Below, piece after piece: positions 4,464 to 16,630 of a stretch of 26,923 bases of DNA. The stretch's first letter is position 1; each line of letters begins with the position of its first letter. This DNA comes from a virus, in the IMG/VR virus record IMGVR_UViG_3300046009_004047, positions 1 to 26,923 of that record. One strand, 5' to 3'. The notes below the pieces were generated by a model. That model was not told where the DNA came from. It worked only from the letters and a program-made list of their open reading frames with translations, and searched no databases. A program made the position numbers and the translations under genes.

Positions 4464-4824
4464 AAAATCAATGACTTAAAAATACTTGCCCACAAATATC
4501 TGTATGGATTTAGCTGTTTTGTATAAAATTTAGTCAATTTGAGGAAATTCTTGTATGAAAAATTTTTATTATTTTTAATTATTAGTTCAAATATAATTGA
4601 AATGACATGGCTTTAAATTGTTAAGTGATTGATTTTGAACGAGTTAATTTTAATTTATTGAAGTGTTTTTAACTTTTATTATTGTGCCCAAAAGTGAGTT
4701 AAGTTATTGATTTTAAAGAGGAAAATGCCGTTTTATTATAAAATTATCGTTTTTCTAAAAACACCCCCTTTTTATAATTTACAAATAAAACTTGTATATA
4801 ATTTGTAAGTCATTGATTCTAAAG
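4464..4824. repeat. Four spaced copies of TAAGTNATTGATTYT
   Basis: Copies: minus strand at 4464-4478 (read as AAAATCAATGACTTA on plus), and plus strand starting at 4622, 4700 and 4806. The one variable position after AAGT is C, G, T, C, and the matches extend into A/T-rich flanks. Spacings are irregular (about 150, 78 and 106 bases). Similar spaced copies act as operators or iterons in other phages. The core was not noticed elsewhere in the window. Confidence 0.65.
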
Positions 4825-4933
4825 GATTAACAAGAAATTCTTGTAAATATATAAAATATATATATATATATAATAATAAATAAATAATAACTAATAAAAA
4901 ACTAACTAACATCAACACTTTGCAAAAAATCGT

Positions 4934-4995
4934 GTATGATTTTTTTAAGTAAATCCAGCTCAGCAAAAAATATTTGTAATTTAAAAAAATCATAC
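4934..4995. repeat. 15-bp perfect inverted repeat upstream of rightward operon
   Basis: Arms GTATGATTTTTTTAA (4934-4948) and TTAAAAAAATCATAC (4981-4995) with a 32-base spacer. The left arm also forms a smaller AAAAAATC/GATTTTTT hairpin with the bases just before it. It lies immediately upstream of the TTGACA at 5012, so it could be a protein-binding dyad controlling rightward early transcription. Confidence 0.6.
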
Positions 4996-5116
4996 GGAAA
5001 AAAACGCAAAATTGACAAAAAATTTTGTAAGGGTTTTTTATGAATTTTTTATAGTTGCTTTTATGATTTTTTTATGGTATTTTTCAGCGTCAAAATCATC
5101 AAAAGGCAGACTTAAA

Positions 5117-6362: not shown

Positions 6363-6777
6363 ACAACTAGCTAAATCAGGTAGTGAGCATGCACACCAGA
6401 CAGCATTATTTGCTTGGTGTGCATTGAACGTTAATCAATATCCTGAACTTAAATGGTTTCATGCTATACCTAATGGCGGCAATCGTGGCGATACAGCACA
6501 ATCGAGAGCCATTGAAGGTGGTAGAATGAAAGCTGAAGGCGTTAAGCGTGGTGTTGCTGATTGTTTCTTACCTGTTAAATGTGGGCACTGGTCAGGCTTA
6601 TATATTGAAATGAAAAAGGTAGACTTAAAACCTAAAACAGCTAAATCAAATGGCGGTTTGAGTGTTGCACAAATTGAGTTTAAAAAGTTTGTGCAAAATC
6701 AAGGGTATGGATGGGTGGTGTGCTATGGATGGGTAGAAGCTAAAGATATTTTAATTCAATACTTGACACAAAGTTAA
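6352..6777 (+). CDS. VRR-NUC family nuclease (141 aa)
   Basis: The core shows the VRR-NUC pattern of the PD-(D/E)xK superfamily. There is HQTALFAWCAL near the start, then WFHAIPNGGNRGD, KAEGVKRGVADCFLP (the catalytic aspartate region), LYIEMKK (the E-x-K) and a final LSVAQIEF ... GWVVCYGW. The length matches stand-alone phage VRR-NUC proteins. Such enzymes cleave branched or structured DNA, and some are proposed Holliday-junction resolvases, so a role in resolving replication or packaging intermediates is plausible. Family assignment is strong; the exact substrate is inference. Last gene before a new promoter. Confidence 0.9.
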   Translation: MTPEQLAKSGSEHAHQTALFAWCALNVNQYPELKWFHAIPNGGNRGDTAQSRAIEGGRMKAEGVKRGVADCFLPVKCGHWSGLYIEMKKVDLKPKTAKSNGGLSVAQIEFKKFVQNQGYGWVVCYGWVEAKDILIQYLTQS

Positions 6778-6790
6778 AACTGTATAAAAT
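6763..6790 (+). promoter_or_regulatory. Rightward sigma70-type promoter
   Basis: TTGACA (6763-6768), 16-base spacer, TAAAAT (6785-6790); start expected near 6797, about 30 bases before the next ATG. The -35 box overlaps the end of the nuclease gene. It would drive the 191-aa gene and the downstream structured RNA, up to the terminator at 7658-7686. Confidence 0.75.
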
Positions 6791-6827: not shown

Positions 6828-7403
6828 ATGGCAAAACCTAACAAAACATTAATCGAGTGTGTAGCCGCAACTTTGGTTGGTGGTTTCACATACACCATAC
6901 CACTACAACATTCAAGCTTAGTTAAAGACGGATTGGTGGAAGTTAATCCAGCGGTTACTGATCCAAACGGAAAAGGCATCGGTACACGTGCAACACAAGC
7001 AGGTATTGAACTGGTTCAAGAGTACGAAGCTTCAGCTACAAATGAACCAACTGATACACCTGAAGGATGGGATGCCCCTACTGATGCGCCCACTCCCATA
7101 CCAGCTAAAACTGGTAAATTTGTCATTGAAGATGCTGTACCAATGCCAAAAATTAAAAGGGTAGGTGGTGGTAATAGCCTATATCCTTTTGATGCTTTGG
7201 AAGTTGGACAATCTTTTTTTGTGGGCAAAGAAGCTAAATCGTTGGCTTCAACTGTTGCTAATGCAAACTTGCGCTATTCTGAGGTTATTCCAGGTGAAAC
7301 GCGCATTAATAGAAAAGGTGTTGAAGTGCCTAAAACTACCCAAACCCGCAAATTTGAAGTTCGTGCGGTTGACGGTGGTGCTAGAATCTGGCGTACTGCA
7401 TAA
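6828..7403 (+). CDS. Phage protein with C-terminal small repeat domain (191 aa)
   Basis: A TTG at 6816 is in frame, but ATG 6828 has GGAG six bases upstream and is chosen. The N-terminal part (about 1-65) is a compact domain with VAATLVGGFTYTIPLQ. A proline/threonine linker follows (DTPEGWDAPTDAPTPIP). The C-terminal 75 residues begin YPFDALEVGQSFFVGKEA and end RKFEVRAVDGGARIWR. That pattern matches the two repeats of the 164-aa protein at 5117. Function unknown. It has its own strong promoter, so it is probably well expressed, and it is followed directly by the structured RNA. Confidence 0.75.
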   Translation: MAKPNKTLIECVAATLVGGFTYTIPLQHSSLVKDGLVEVNPAVTDPNGKGIGTRATQAGIELVQEYEASATNEPTDTPEGWDAPTDAPTPIPAKTGKFVIEDAVPMPKIKRVGGGNSLYPFDALEVGQSFFVGKEAKSLASTVANANLRYSEVIPGETRINRKGVEVPKTTQTRKFEVRAVDGGARIWRTA

Positions 7404-7420
7404 TTAATAAATAGTTTAAA

Positions 7421-7686
7421 CCTAGCTAGTCAGGTTAAGGCTAGCTGACTTTGCCCGTTTCAAAGCAAATGGGTGCTAAGTTTTGAAGGATTGGTTATTA
7501 ACCTGACTTGCGTATCGGGTGCGCTACAGCTAAACGAGCTGAATAATAGCCAATCACTTGAAAGCTTAAACTTAGACAGGCAAGGTGGTCGGAAAAATTA
7601 CCTCCCGTTTAAGCTTTCTTCAGTTTGTTCCGACCTTTCTAAAGAAGGTAACTCCACAGCCAGCCTTTAAAAAGCTGGCTTTTTTT
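7421..7686 (+). ncRNA. Candidate structured RNA with two consecutive pseudoknots
   Basis: Long perfect helices fall in interlocking order. A: 7428-7438 pairs with 7498-7508 (11 bp). B: 7489-7500 pairs with 7544-7555 (12 bp, one G-U); A and B share three bases, so one gives up its end. Small hairpins 7454-7460/7467-7473 and 7527-7531/7537-7541 lie inside. C: 7560-7571 pairs with 7607-7618 (12 bp). D: 7587-7594 pairs with 7628-7635 (8 bp), crossing C. A terminator stem closes the region at 7658-7680. No convincing gene fits here. It does not show the conserved sequences of tmRNA, RNase P or group I introns. Likely transcribed from the 6763 promoter as a 3' RNA; function unknown. Confidence 0.65.
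7658..7686 (+). terminator. Intrinsic terminator closing the structured RNA
   Basis: Stem AGCCAGC (7658-7664) / GCTGGCT (7674-7680), nine-base loop, then a run of six more T residues. A standard rho-independent terminator. It separates the early transcription unit and the structured RNA from the packaging genes. Confidence 0.9.
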
Positions 7687-7739
7687 ATGTTTTGCCTATA
7701 CTATTTTGTAGAATTTTTAATAAATTATACGGGTACGAT

Positions 7740-7994
7740 ATGGACATACAAACAGCTTTTAATATTGCTTTAAGTATTTTGGGAACTTTATTCGGTTGGT
7801 TATTGCATACATTGTGGGGATCAATAACTAAACTGCAAGAAGAAAATAAGGACATTGTTAAAAAGATTGGAGAAATAGAAGTTTTGGTTGCTGGTGATTA
7901 TGTTAAGCGCGAAAGTTTTGAAAAAACCATCGAAGCTTTATTTCGTAAAATTGATGGTTTATATGACTTGTTAAGTAAAAAAGCTGATAAATGA
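7740..7994 (+). CDS. Membrane-anchored coiled-coil protein, holin-like (84 aa)
   Basis: ATG 7740 is preferred over the TTG at 7692, which lies in the terminator tail. One transmembrane helix is visible at residues 5-25 (TAFNIALSILGTLFGWLLHTLW). It is followed by a charged coiled coil (ITKLQEENKDIVKKIGEIEVL) and a second amphipathic helix. This layout is common in small phage proteins near terminase or lysis genes that are often labelled holin-like. A lysis or inner-membrane role is possible but not shown. Its stop overlaps the next start by four bases. Confidence 0.65.
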   Translation: MDIQTAFNIALSILGTLFGWLLHTLWGSITKLQEENKDIVKKIGEIEVLVAGDYVKRESFEKTIEALFRKIDGLYDLLSKKADK

Positions 7995-8192: not shown

Positions 8193-8573
8193 ATGACTGA
8201 AGATAAACAAAAATTTGTTGAACTGTGGGTAAGATACGGTGATGCGTATAAAGCAGCGTCTGATTTATATCCTGGCGAGTATGGCAAATGTTTAGAAATT
8301 GCTAACACTTGGCCTTTAGACGTTGAGATTTTAGCTGCCAAAATTAAATATATTGATAGTCATGGTGTACCTATGCCTATCGATGATGTGGGCTTAGTTG
8401 CTGAGTTATTAGAAGTTGCTAGAAGTGCAAAATATGTTGATGAAAAAGTTAAAGCTTACAATCTAATTGCTGAAATAACCGGCGCAAAAAAGAACAATCA
8501 AAAAATTGAAATGCCTATAATTCAAAGTGAACCATTTAGAGTGGTGCTTGCTGGCGATGATGTAAATATATAG
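8193..8573 (+). CDS. terS: Terminase small subunit
   Basis: Starts at ATG 8193 with AAGG close upstream. The N-terminus (DKQKFVELWVRYGDAYKAASDLYP) has the helix-rich, helix-turn-helix-like look of small terminase subunits. It is followed by a central helical oligomerisation part and a basic tail (ITGAKKNNQKIEMP). Position directly before the large terminase supports the call. It would recognise phage DNA and regulate the large subunit at the start of packaging. Length (126 aa) is on the short side but within the range of phage small terminases. Assignment rests mainly on fold pattern and context. Confidence 0.8.
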   Translation: MTEDKQKFVELWVRYGDAYKAASDLYPGEYGKCLEIANTWPLDVEILAAKIKYIDSHGVPMPIDDVGLVAELLEVARSAKYVDEKVKAYNLIAEITGAKKNNQKIEMPIIQSEPFRVVLAGDDVNI

Positions 8574-8579
8574 TTAATA

Positions 8580-9908
8580 ATGAAACTAACTGAAAAACAA
8601 CAGGAAGCACAAAAGATACTTGCTTCATTCGCCTTATATTTAATGCTGTTCGGTGGTTCCCGTTCAGGTAAAACTTTTTTATTAGTTCGTAATGTAGTTT
8701 TAAGGGCTTTAAAATCCCCAGGATCAAGACATTGTATTTTAAGGTTTCGATTTAACCATATTAAATCATCTATTATTTTTGACACTTTCCCAAAGGTGAT
8801 GAAAATATGCTTTTCTGATATTGAATGGAAATTAAATAAAACAGATTGGTTTGTAACATTACCTAACGGTTCTGAAATTTGGTTCGGTGGTATGGATGAT
8901 AAACAACGAACTGAAAAGATATTAGGTAATGAATATGTAACTATATACTTTAACGAATGTTCGCAATTGTCATATTCTGCGGTTGGATTGGTCGTTACTC
9001 GTTTAGCGCAACAATGCTATGAATATGTTAATGGTGAGCAAGGTAAATTATTAACTCCAAGATTGTATTTTGACTGTAATCCGCCTAATAAATTACATTG
9101 GACTTATTTACTGTTTGTTAAGTTTGTTGATCCTGAAACTAAAGAACCTTTAAAAAATCCTGAAAAGTATAAATCAATTAAAATGAACCCTGCTGACAAC
9201 AAGGTTAATTTAACTGAAACTTACTTAGAAACTTTGGCTAGTTTACCAGCTAGGTTGAGAAAACGTTTTATTGATGGTGATTTTGCCGATGCTAATCCAG
9301 ATGGTTTATTCAACGATGAAACTATTGAAAAATGGCGAGTTTTGGATGGTCGGGTTCCTGAGTTTGTTCGTGTTGTGGTTGCTTGTGACCCTAGTGGATC
9401 AGATGATACAGATAATGCTGGAAATGATGCGATAGGGATTGCCGTGGTGGGCCTTGGTGTTGATGGCAACGTCTACCTATTAGAAGATTGCACAGTGAAA
9501 GCTGGCCCTGCTGTATGGGGTAGAATTGTGACGACTGCTTATGATCGACACAAGGCAGATGTTGTTGTTGGTGAAATGAACTTTGGTGGTGCTATGGTTA
9601 AGTTTGTTATTCAAACTAGCCGACCCGGAACGCCATTTATGCCCGTTACTGCTTCAAGAGGTAAAGCTGTTCGGGCTGAACCTGTATCGGCTTTATATGA
9701 AGAAGGTAAAGTAAGACATGTGGGCTACTTTCGTGAACTTGAAGAAGAATTGAGTGGTTTTTCAAGTATGGGATATGTGGGCGAACATTCCCCTAATAGA
9801 GCAGATGCTTTAATATGGGCGATAACTGCATTATTTCCAGGTGCAACTAAAAAACAAAATAACGTTAATCAAAAATTGGCTTTGCCGGTGGTGAATCATT
9901 ATGGATAA
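8580..9908 (+). CDS. terL: Terminase large subunit (packaging ATPase/nuclease)
   Basis: The ATPase domain has Walker A GGSRSGKT (residues 25-32) and Walker B TIYFNE (121-126). The C-terminal RNase H-like nuclease shows VVVACDPSG with D270, GEMNFGG around E332, and NRADALIWAITALFP with D409. All key acidic residues are present, and the 442-aa length is normal. The protein cuts concatemeric DNA and pumps it into the prohead through the portal. It follows the small subunit by six bases and overlaps the portal gene by eight, as in P22-like packaging modules. Confidence 0.95.
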   Translation: MKLTEKQQEAQKILASFALYLMLFGGSRSGKTFLLVRNVVLRALKSPGSRHCILRFRFNHIKSSIIFDTFPKVMKICFSDIEWKLNKTDWFVTLPNGSEIWFGGMDDKQRTEKILGNEYVTIYFNECSQLSYSAVGLVVTRLAQQCYEYVNGEQGKLLTPRLYFDCNPPNKLHWTYLLFVKFVDPETKEPLKNPEKYKSIKMNPADNKVNLTETYLETLASLPARLRKRFIDGDFADANPDGLFNDETIEKWRVLDGRVPEFVRVVVACDPSGSDDTDNAGNDAIGIAVVGLGVDGNVYLLEDCTVKAGPAVWGRIVTTAYDRHKADVVVGEMNFGGAMVKFVIQTSRPGTPFMPVTASRGKAVRAEPVSALYEEGKVRHVGYFRELEEELSGFSSMGYVGEHSPNRADALIWAITALFPGATKKQNNVNQKLALPVVNHYG

Positions 9909-14553: not shown

Positions 14554-15035
14554 TGTCTTGGACAAAACGTGAATTAGTCATACAGGCTTTTGAAGAAATA
14601 GGGTATGCGTCATATATTTATGATGCTATGCCTGAACAGCTTGATAGCGTTTTGCGAACATTAAATGTGATGATGGCTTCATGGAACGCTATCGGTATTC
14701 GTATTGGATACCCGATAGCATCCGATCCAAGTAACGATGATATTAATCAAGATAGCCAAATCACCGATTCAGCTATCGAAGCTGTTTATACTAATTTAGC
14801 TATTCGTATTGCCCCAAGGTTCGGTAAAACAATACCACAAGAGTTACGGCAAACTGCAAAAAGCACATATGATAATTTATTAACTAAATTAGCTATGCCG
14901 CCACCTATGCAGTTTCCAAACACATTACCTTCAGGTGCGGGTAATAAACCTTGGCGTTCTCCATATAAAGTATTTTTGGATAATCCAGTTGATCCATTAT
15001 TAGCTGATAATTCAGATCAAATTGAGTTTGAATAA
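14553..15035 (+). CDS. Tail accessory factor, P22 gp4-like
   Basis: 160 residues, about the size of P22 gp4 (166 aa). Features match the family: WTKRELVIQAFEEIGYA at the start, EQLDSVLRTLNVMMASWNAIGIRIGYP, DSAIEAVYTNLAIRIAPRFGKTIPQELRQTA, and a proline-rich end. In P22 this protein binds the portal and forms the ring that carries the rest of the tail. The start shares one base with the preceding stop (TAATG), and its own stop shares one base with the next start. Assignment strong on sequence pattern and order. Confidence 0.9.
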   Translation: MSWTKRELVIQAFEEIGYASYIYDAMPEQLDSVLRTLNVMMASWNAIGIRIGYPIASDPSNDDINQDSQITDSAIEAVYTNLAIRIAPRFGKTIPQELRQTAKSTYDNLLTKLAMPPPMQFPNTLPSGAGNKPWRSPYKVFLDNPVDPLLADNSDQIEFE

Positions 15036-16630
15036 TGCCCACAATAAACCAACTTTCTAAAGTTTCAAGTCTAAGTGATGGTGATTTGATACCTATGCAA
15101 TCTGAAACTTTAGGTGATGCTAGGGCTATTAGTGCTGGTAATTTAGCTAGTTATGTTAATGGTAAGTTAGGTGCGATTAATACTGGTACAGGTGGCGATA
15201 CAGGTGGTGGTACAACTATAATTAATTCAAATCCATTAGCTGTAATTCCAAAAACAAATGTTAATAAATTGTGGGAAAAGTTTAATACAGGCGAACCAAT
15301 TTATTCAACTCCAATATTTGTTCCTGATTTTACTTCATCTTCTTATTCTGGCCCTGTTTTTATTTATCAATCTTGGGATTGGTATTTATATGTTATTAAA
15401 GTTTCAGATGGTTCTACAGTTTGGCGTTATCCATTCGGCGCACCTAATTATGGTAGAGCGCAGTATGTTAAAATAGGTTCAACACAATATATATTTGGCG
15501 CAAGCCATGATGGTAATGTTTATTGTTTGAATCAAGAAGGAACTAAGATTTGGGATTTTAAAAATCTATATGACAGAGAAGGATCAGGAACGTTTGTTTA
15601 CAACGGTCTGGGTAATTTCACAGATGTTTCAAAAAATTGGGCTACTAATTCGTTTATTAGGTCAATTTCAACGGGAACATATAACGCGAATATTACGATA
15701 ACAATTGGAAGTACACCGACTAACTTTGTAGTTAAAGCATGTTCAGGTAATTCAATTGATATTTATGATCCTGCTGGGTTGACTATAGGTAATACATATT
15801 CATATGTAGTTACGCCAAAATATGAATCAGATATTTATTATCAACATGCGGGTACTGTGAGTGTTGAATCTGGTGTTGGTTATTTATATGTAACTGGTTT
15901 TGATAATCAATGTGTTAAATTATCAATGGTTGGTTCGTTAATCTGGAAGTATTCAACTTTAGAAAACATTGAACCATTCCCATTAGTTAATGATATTGAT
16001 AATGATGGTGTTTTGGAATGTGTATTTCCTTCAGTTGATGGTAAGTTTTATGTAGTCAATGCTGTAACTGGTGTTCTTGAAGGATCGTATACAGGCGGTG
16101 AAGGTTTCGATGCTTATATTAAAGTAGGTCAAATTAAAGGAACATCGACAAAATTTGTAGTATCAGGTTGCCGTGATGGTAGAGTCTATTCGATGAACGG
16201 AACCACTAAAGCTTTAGATTCAAAATCAACTAGTTTTGGATCGTTATCAGGTAATGATATTGATGCTGGTGTTGCTTTATTTGATAACGGCAATGGAACA
16301 TTTAATGTAATAAGTGTGGGTGATGCTGGGTTTATAGTTTGCCTTGATTATAACATGAATGTATTGTGGCGAATAGCTTCAGGGTTATTATTTAACTCAA
16401 CTCCACAAGTTGCTTATATTCAAGAGCAGCAAGTTATCATAGCTTGTGATATGGCAGGAGCAGTTACAATAATTTCAGGAACCGGAACATTGCTATCTCA
16501 ATTCCATGTTAAAGGTGGTATTGAAGGAACTCCTTATATCGGTGATGTTAATGGTGATGGTTATCAAGAAATGATGATAACTACATTAGATGGTAATGTT
16601 TATTTGTATAGATTAACTGGAATATCATAA
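15035..16630 (+). CDS. Tail fibre/receptor-binding protein with beta-propeller repeats (531 aa)
   Basis: The N-terminal ~50 residues (INQLSKVSSLSDGDLIP ... GNLASYVNGKLGA) form an anchor shared with the next gene. A glycine/threonine linker follows, then repeats of PQQ/FG-GAP type to the end. Examples are DWYLYVIKVSDGSTVWRYP, HDGNVYCLNQEGTKIWDF, DIDNDGVLECVFPSVDGKFYVVNA and GDVNGDGYQEMMITTLDGNVYLY. The DxDxDG loops look like calcium-binding FG-GAP sites. A beta-propeller is an uncommon choice for a phage tail protein and could bind host sugars or a surface protein. No catalytic residues seen. Its start codon lies inside a reverse TGTGGGCA copy. Confidence 0.8.
   Translation: MPTINQLSKVSSLSDGDLIPMQSETLGDARAISAGNLASYVNGKLGAINTGTGGDTGGGTTIINSNPLAVIPKTNVNKLWEKFNTGEPIYSTPIFVPDFTSSSYSGPVFIYQSWDWYLYVIKVSDGSTVWRYPFGAPNYGRAQYVKIGSTQYIFGASHDGNVYCLNQEGTKIWDFKNLYDREGSGTFVYNGLGNFTDVSKNWATNSFIRSISTGTYNANITITIGSTPTNFVVKACSGNSIDIYDPAGLTIGNTYSYVVTPKYESDIYYQHAGTVSVESGVGYLYVTGFDNQCVKLSMVGSLIWKYSTLENIEPFPLVNDIDNDGVLECVFPSVDGKFYVVNAVTGVLEGSYTGGEGFDAYIKVGQIKGTSTKFVVSGCRDGRVYSMNGTTKALDSKSTSFGSLSGNDIDAGVALFDNGNGTFNVISVGDAGFIVCLDYNMNVLWRIASGLLFNSTPQVAYIQEQQVIIACDMAGAVTIISGTGTLLSQFHVKGGIEGTPYIGDVNGDGYQEMMITTLDGNVYLYRLTGIS

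Follow-up and report, generated by a model that had tools for sequence, protein, structure and literature searches.

The window, by which we mean the whole 26,923-nucleotide stretch of DNA that was analyzed, is a 26.9-kb virus record from a P22-like phage, the portal, scaffold, coat, and terminase of which match the corresponding PHROGs; judged by portal, its closest isolates are uncultured Manatee Spring phages and Pseudomonas phage PfAn1. Ahead of the packaging genes lies a short unit on the plus strand, beginning with a promoter-like element, TTGACA-16-TAAAAT (6763-6790), that agrees with the consensus at 11 of 12 positions and, on this consensus match alone, would serve the DUF7303 gene (PF23978, phrog_7597; 190 aa) at 6831-7403. 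The 3' UTR of the unit runs from the stop codon through the end of the terminator (7404-7687), the intrinsic terminator itself, AGCCAGC-loop-GCTGGCT, comprising a hairpin at 7658-7680 with a T-run that extends to 7687. A phrog_462-like gene encoding 84 aa follows on the same strand (7740-7994), and TerS then starts at 8193 and TerL at 8580, which places the RNA considered here ~0.5 kb before the former and ~0.9 kb before the latter. An earlier, sequence-only reading of this DNA had supposed that the region follows a gene with a strong promoter of its own and closes with a terminator, and both elements are indeed to be found. Since the DUF7303 match upstream is complete, as is the gene downstream, the RNA interrupts neither gene. 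It sits instead between a stop codon and an intrinsic terminator, the placement by which a 3'-UTR-derived RNA is recognized in sequence, the transcript itself being a predicted one.

The AlphaFold model of the DUF7303 protein (mean pLDDT 69) has the N-terminal order helix-strand-helix-strand-strand, and a weak resemblance to winged-helix regulators, with no match at E ≤ 0.001, suggests a possible winged helix there. DUF7303 also occurs in the isolates Pseudomonas phage 73, Acinetobacter phage Loki, and Escherichia phage Halfdan. The G+C content of the RNA stretch is 43%, as compared with 35.6% for the window, and that of the DUF7303 gene is likewise 43%. Elsewhere in the window, Watson-Crick inverted repeats of 15 and 13 bp lie at 4801-5000, in an AT-rich gap between leftward and rightward gene blocks, possibly as an operator, promoter region, or origin, and a beta-propeller-like protein (PF25292 and PF13570 matches) is encoded at 15035-16630 among the P22-like structural genes.

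A 65-codon GTG frame (7473-7670) spans part of the RNA. It has neither a PHROG match nor a counterpart, and we reject a coding explanation on these grounds; the corresponding stretch of the nearest relative, L216, has no stop-free run longer than 52 codons. A coding frame conserved in relatives, which the sequence-only reading had named as evidence against an RNA, was not found, and, so far as testing allows, the stretch is non-coding. The RNA had also been called undescribed and, consistent with this, no Rfam family, GOLLD and ROOL included, reaches its gathering score in the window, while a permissive scan of the site returns weak matches at the 3' end, mostly terminator look-alikes and for the rest chance. 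The resemblance once drawn to a group I intron core fares less well: the group I intron covariance model gives nothing up to E=10 and the RNA does not interrupt a gene, so that the likeness comes down to helix order and the intron idea is abandoned. ARAGORN finds no tRNA or tmRNA in the window, and no tmRNA model, the permuted form included, matches at E up to 10; a tmRNA of either form is rejected, there being neither a tRNA-like domain nor a model match. Bacteriophage pRNA gives no Rfam model match in what is, by portal, scaffold, and coat, a P22-like phage. The stretch holds no direct or tandem repeats, which disposes of a tandem-repeat RNA antitoxin of the type III toxin-antitoxin kind.

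Helices, folding energies, and comparison with chance

Helices were found by an exhaustive mechanical listing across the stretch, and all of those given here are on the plus strand. Helix A (7428-7438/7498-7508; 11 bp), helix C (7560-7571/7607-7618; 12 bp), and helix D (7587-7594/7628-7635; 8 bp) are Watson-Crick throughout, and helix B (7489-7500/7544-7555) has 12 bp with one G-U, the last 3 nt of its 5' strand being common to A3'. The four helices of 11, 12, 12, and 8 bp of the sequence-only reading are thus all in place, and in the interlocking order that it gave, A5'-B5'-A3'-B3' and C5'-D5'-C3'-D3'. Its description of them as perfect holds for A, C, and D, but not for B, which also overlaps A and, because A3' and B5' share 3 nt (7498-7500), is left with 9 bp when A is complete. 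The listing adds helix E (7533-7543/7619-7629; 11 bp, two G-U), helix Y (7448-7455/7579-7586; 8 bp), and P2 (7423-7427/7528-7532), an extension of A, all three of them absent from the earlier account. There are, further, a local hairpin at 7458-7466/7480-7488 (with an alternative at 7453-7460/7467-7474), a hairpin GCGUAU/GUGCGC (7510-7524) bulged within P2-A, and P1alt (7423-7431/7439-7447), a local hairpin that competes with helix A.

Because E and Y tie both units together in a single fold of two layers, the earlier picture of “two tandem pseudoknots,” while right about the interlocking, is too simple. In layer 1, P2 runs into A around the bulged hairpin, and E then runs into C, which it encloses; in layer 2, Y surrounds a hairpin and B, with D then abutting Y. 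With B trimmed to 9 bp, the overlap of the layers is 2 nt (7628-7629), and together they use 156 of 213 nt. Strands lie end to end at P2/A, B5'/A3', P2-3'/E5', C3'/E3', and Y3'/D5', and C3' (7607-7618), E3' (7619-7629), and D3' (7628-7635) follow one another consecutively.

That helices of this kind are unlikely by chance, as had been judged from the sequence, is supported by comparison with dinucleotide shuffles, of which 1 in 1000 contains two Watson-Crick helices of at least 11 bp. The best set of non-overlapping helices, with crossing allowed, scores 149.8, as against a mean of 45.6 and a maximum of 115.6 in shuffles (0 of 500). Crossing as such is ordinary, 428 of 1000 shuffles doing as well by count of crossing helix pairs alone (helices of at least 10 bp with G-U), and the weight of the observation therefore lies in helix length and packing, not in crossing. 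By packing, the window RNA ranks at the top of 2908 sequence windows upstream of TerL drawn from 81 loci, and its z of 4.4 compares with a maximum of 2.7 among 21 control 3' spacers taken from those loci. As a measure, packing can mislead, since positions 801-1050 of L002, inside an open frame at low G+C, score a z of 4.1, equal to the level of the RNA.

The nested minimum-energy fold of the plus strand comes to -90.2 kcal/mol (z ~ -4), better than the -79.3 of the minus strand. Upon removing the terminator, the MFE z of the spacer is -3.2, a value that a few control spacers also reach. This nested minimum holds B and D without A, C, or E, all three of which are given near-zero probability by nested energy models; when A, E, and C are enforced, the nested fold comes to -84.6, versus -90.2 for the preferred fold based on layer 2. 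For that reason energies alone are no proof that the interlocking helices coexist. A pseudoknotted coexistence of both layers is plausible and, because the layers use almost entirely different nucleotides, a pseudoknotted body fits better than a switch between two folds.

Relatives and the gap between DUF7303 and its terminator

IMG/VR was scanned with TerL, portal, coat, DUF7303, and downstream-protein queries, yielding more than 300 loci. The DUF7303 protein of the window as sole query returned no locus, and the downstream 84-aa protein returned only L216; the genome collection gave only 2 distant DUF7303 loci, and hence no set of prophage relatives. At the DNA level, 50,697 phage records gave only chance matches of 20-27 nt, one of which, in MW202692, sits in an unrelated intergenic place. 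An exact 24-mer across the B5'/A3' junction had no occurrence in the IMG/VR scan, and blastn in the relatives matched only the terminator, in the L094 genome. The covariance models R1 and R2, built as the two halves of the window RNA, found nothing credible in ~1.6 Mb of relatives, one 13-bit match in L311 being taken as chance, and no second copy of the RNA occurs in the window or in the fetched relatives. BLAST, Rfam, and the covariance models gave no homologue from which covariation could be read, and the pseudoknots are accordingly described here as putative.

Of the genomes spanning the site, just two are sufficiently close and have a long spacer. The nearest relative, L216 (TerL 78%, same gene order, and with the 84-aa downstream gene also present), has 365 nt from the DUF7303 stop to the end of the terminator. 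Its spacer, a non-coding structured stretch no less exceptional than the window RNA, contains one 20-bp and two 11-bp Watson-Crick helices and packs with a z of 4.0 (0 of 500 shuffles). It shows no sequence similarity to the window RNA, a MAFFT alignment being unconvincing beyond the terminator, and its helix plan differs in having a single crossing; as a query it draws from Rfam only look-alikes of terminators and chance hits, with no family above threshold, and it matches phage DNA only by chance. The other genome, L094/L013 (TerL 72%), keeps the terminator in position and in sequence (91% identical over 33 nt to that of the window) and has an equivalent promoter-like TTGACA-18-TACAAT upstream of DUF7303; its spacer, of 184 nt, is unstructured (packing z 0.1). 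A 20-codon basic reading frame (MKAMKKPAKGKVPKPSKKGC) lies between DUF7303 and the terminator of L094, at 2737-2799. L113 and L067 have a short spacer only, and the RNA is absent from relatives with closely similar TerL (L113/L014, L067). By sequence comparison, then, the RNA is lineage-specific, with the terminator and the place after DUF7303 kept.

The succession of DUF7303 and a terminator recurs both among P22-like phages and on other phage contigs. In the 62 non-redundant DUF7303 loci where a terminator could be detected, its median distance from the stop is 37 nt, the gap being at least 150 nt in only 8; the spacers of relatives range in length from under 40 to 347 nt. Because this arrangement is general, the RNA represents additional sequence in the gap that separates the stop codon from the terminator, and its position before the packaging genes, to which the sequence-only reading had drawn attention, is real but belongs to the DUF7303-terminator module as a whole rather than to the RNA. 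A general family of DUF7303-associated RNAs is rejected, most spacers being too short and the long ones differing mutually. The mean packing z is 1.7 in 14 long and mid-length DUF7303 spacers versus 0.39 in 21 control 3' spacers (Mann-Whitney one-sided p 0.019; 0.065 without the window and L216), a hint, not a proof, that the slot may favor structured RNA.

In L222 (IMG/VR 3300050120_000022), a phage contig, a permuted tmRNA (RF04321; 67.5 bits, E 1.6e-10) that ARAGORN missed lies at 6964-7218, 418 nt downstream of the DUF7303 gene. Just after DUF7303, the 3' spacers of L222 and L225 both include, inside hairpins, the motif CCCTTGAATGGGT, which may be a small conserved element.

Interpretation and comparison with known systems

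As a sequence the RNA looks real and unusual, as a family it is an orphan, and as a molecule it is predicted. The explanation we favor, with about even confidence, is that 7404-7687 is the 3' UTR of a short unit (promoter, DUF7303, RNA, terminator) and yields a compact two-layer RNA of ~215 nt that persists as a 3'-end ligand. This explanation builds on what is directly observed, namely the helices, their non-randomness, the gene context, the conserved terminator, and the lack of homologues in what was searched; from these we infer transcription, coexistence of the layers, stability, and function. Transcription would halt at the terminator, and the RNA body and terminator would together withstand 3'-to-5' decay, leaving a discrete 3'-end RNA that might act as a structured ligand, for example one that binds or sequesters a protein of the host or the phage, or that base-pairs through its loops. 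Such an RNA would be specific to its lineage and turn over fast, its terminator and its place after DUF7303 being retained; fast turnover is suggested by a sequence that is not conserved at an address that is, and would be expected if the RNA encounters a host factor. The product, in short, would be a compact, fast-evolving 3'-UTR RNA, probably stable and knotted.

The two layers might otherwise be the alternative states of a switch or attenuator, in which a P1alt-Y-B-D fold and a P2-A-E-C fold would set termination or read-through into the downstream genes. The two nested folds are of similar energy (-90.2 and -84.6), local hairpins compete with long helices, as P1alt does with A, and 7437-7446 can pair with the 3' arm of the terminator at 7673-7682 (10 bp, two G-U), a pairing with an 8-bp counterpart in L216. 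That pairing, however, is within chance (p 0.14 in the window, 0.06 in L216, and 0.78 in L013), which led us to reject an antiterminator; the layers, moreover, use different nucleotides, whereas switches re-use the same ones, and a plain terminator ~37 nt after the stop suffices in most DUF7303 loci. On balance we consider a switch unlikely. We would say much the same of an RNase-resistant 3' UTR element acting in cis only, which would protect the DUF7303 mRNA and have no function in trans. Its location exactly between stop codon and terminator, its dense structure, and the greater structure of long DUF7303 spacers relative to controls (with the p values given above) all fit this idea, but a simple terminator is enough for most DUF7303 genes, and the L094/L013 spacer, at 184 nt, is yet unstructured.

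An origin as a mobile-element remnant, whether inserted DNA peculiar to this lineage or a decayed gene, with abundant inverted repeats that fold as RNA only incidentally, would be in keeping with the variable spacer length among relatives and with the lack of an RNA counterpart in L094 or L113. Such an origin appears improbable for a stretch that has no direct or tandem repeats and no second copy in the window or the fetched relatives, and the helices of which interlock rather than forming terminal inverted repeats. The nearness of TerS and TerL, for its part, could point to a packaging or replication site that works as DNA, through inverted repeats in duplex or cruciform form; yet interlocking arms cannot all make cruciforms, a stop codon precedes the stretch and a transcription terminator closes it, and relatives whose TerL is closely similar do without the stretch, all of which renders a DNA site very improbable. 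As for a self-cleaving or splicing ribozyme, the A/B topology does recall a P3/P7-type pseudoknot, but with no Rfam ribozyme or intron model matching even at E=10 and no gene interrupted, we give this idea hardly any credence.

On the boldest reading, the gap between the DUF7303 stop and its terminator could be a slot for different, non-homologous, heavily structured RNAs, replaced fast in an arms race with a host factor. The candidates are the window, L216, and possibly L220, L204, and L225. We offer this reading as a tentative and rather unlikely possibility, and just as tentatively its corollary, a class of phage RNA set by position, not by sequence. Phage non-coding RNAs are usually recognized via conservation, and those that change too fast are invisible to Rfam-style surveys. 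Should the RNA be real and its L216 counterpart functional, the fixed address after DUF7303 and before the terminator would let such RNAs be collected, and RNAs so collected would be open to direct tests of host-protein binding and of effects on infection.

Among known systems, the group I intron core (P3/P7/P8) shares with the window RNA the A5'-B5'-A3'-B3' order with hairpins in the loops, although we take helix B to be without the conserved P7 features. The packaging RNA of phi29-type phages is likewise encoded near packaging genes; the window RNA differs from it in having no Rfam match and in belonging to a phage that is P22-like by portal, scaffold, and coat. Bacterial 3'-UTR-derived small RNAs are mostly short, lightly structured, and base-pairing. 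The window RNA resembles this class (examples in PMC6393394, PMC9731577, and PMC13250501) in lying between a stop codon and an intrinsic terminator. On the other hand, most of its nucleotides are in long helices. Type III toxin-antitoxin RNAs are defined by tandem repeats of a small pseudoknot beside a nuclease gene, whereas the window RNA is without tandem repeats and has DUF7303 as its neighbor. In these ToxI-like RNAs, pseudoknots are tied to phage-host conflict (PMC5772629).

The ornate RNAs GOLLD and ROOL, of phages and prophages, combine elaborate predicted structure with pseudoknots, their function being unknown (PMC12286853). They are much larger (many GOLLD RNAs exceed 800 nt), often near tRNA islands, and supported by covariation, in contrast to the window RNA, which is ~215 nt long and situated in a 3' UTR, with no tRNA anywhere in the window and no family match. 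What the window RNA has in common with GOLLD and ROOL is that it is phage-encoded and has an elaborate predicted structure with pseudoknots.
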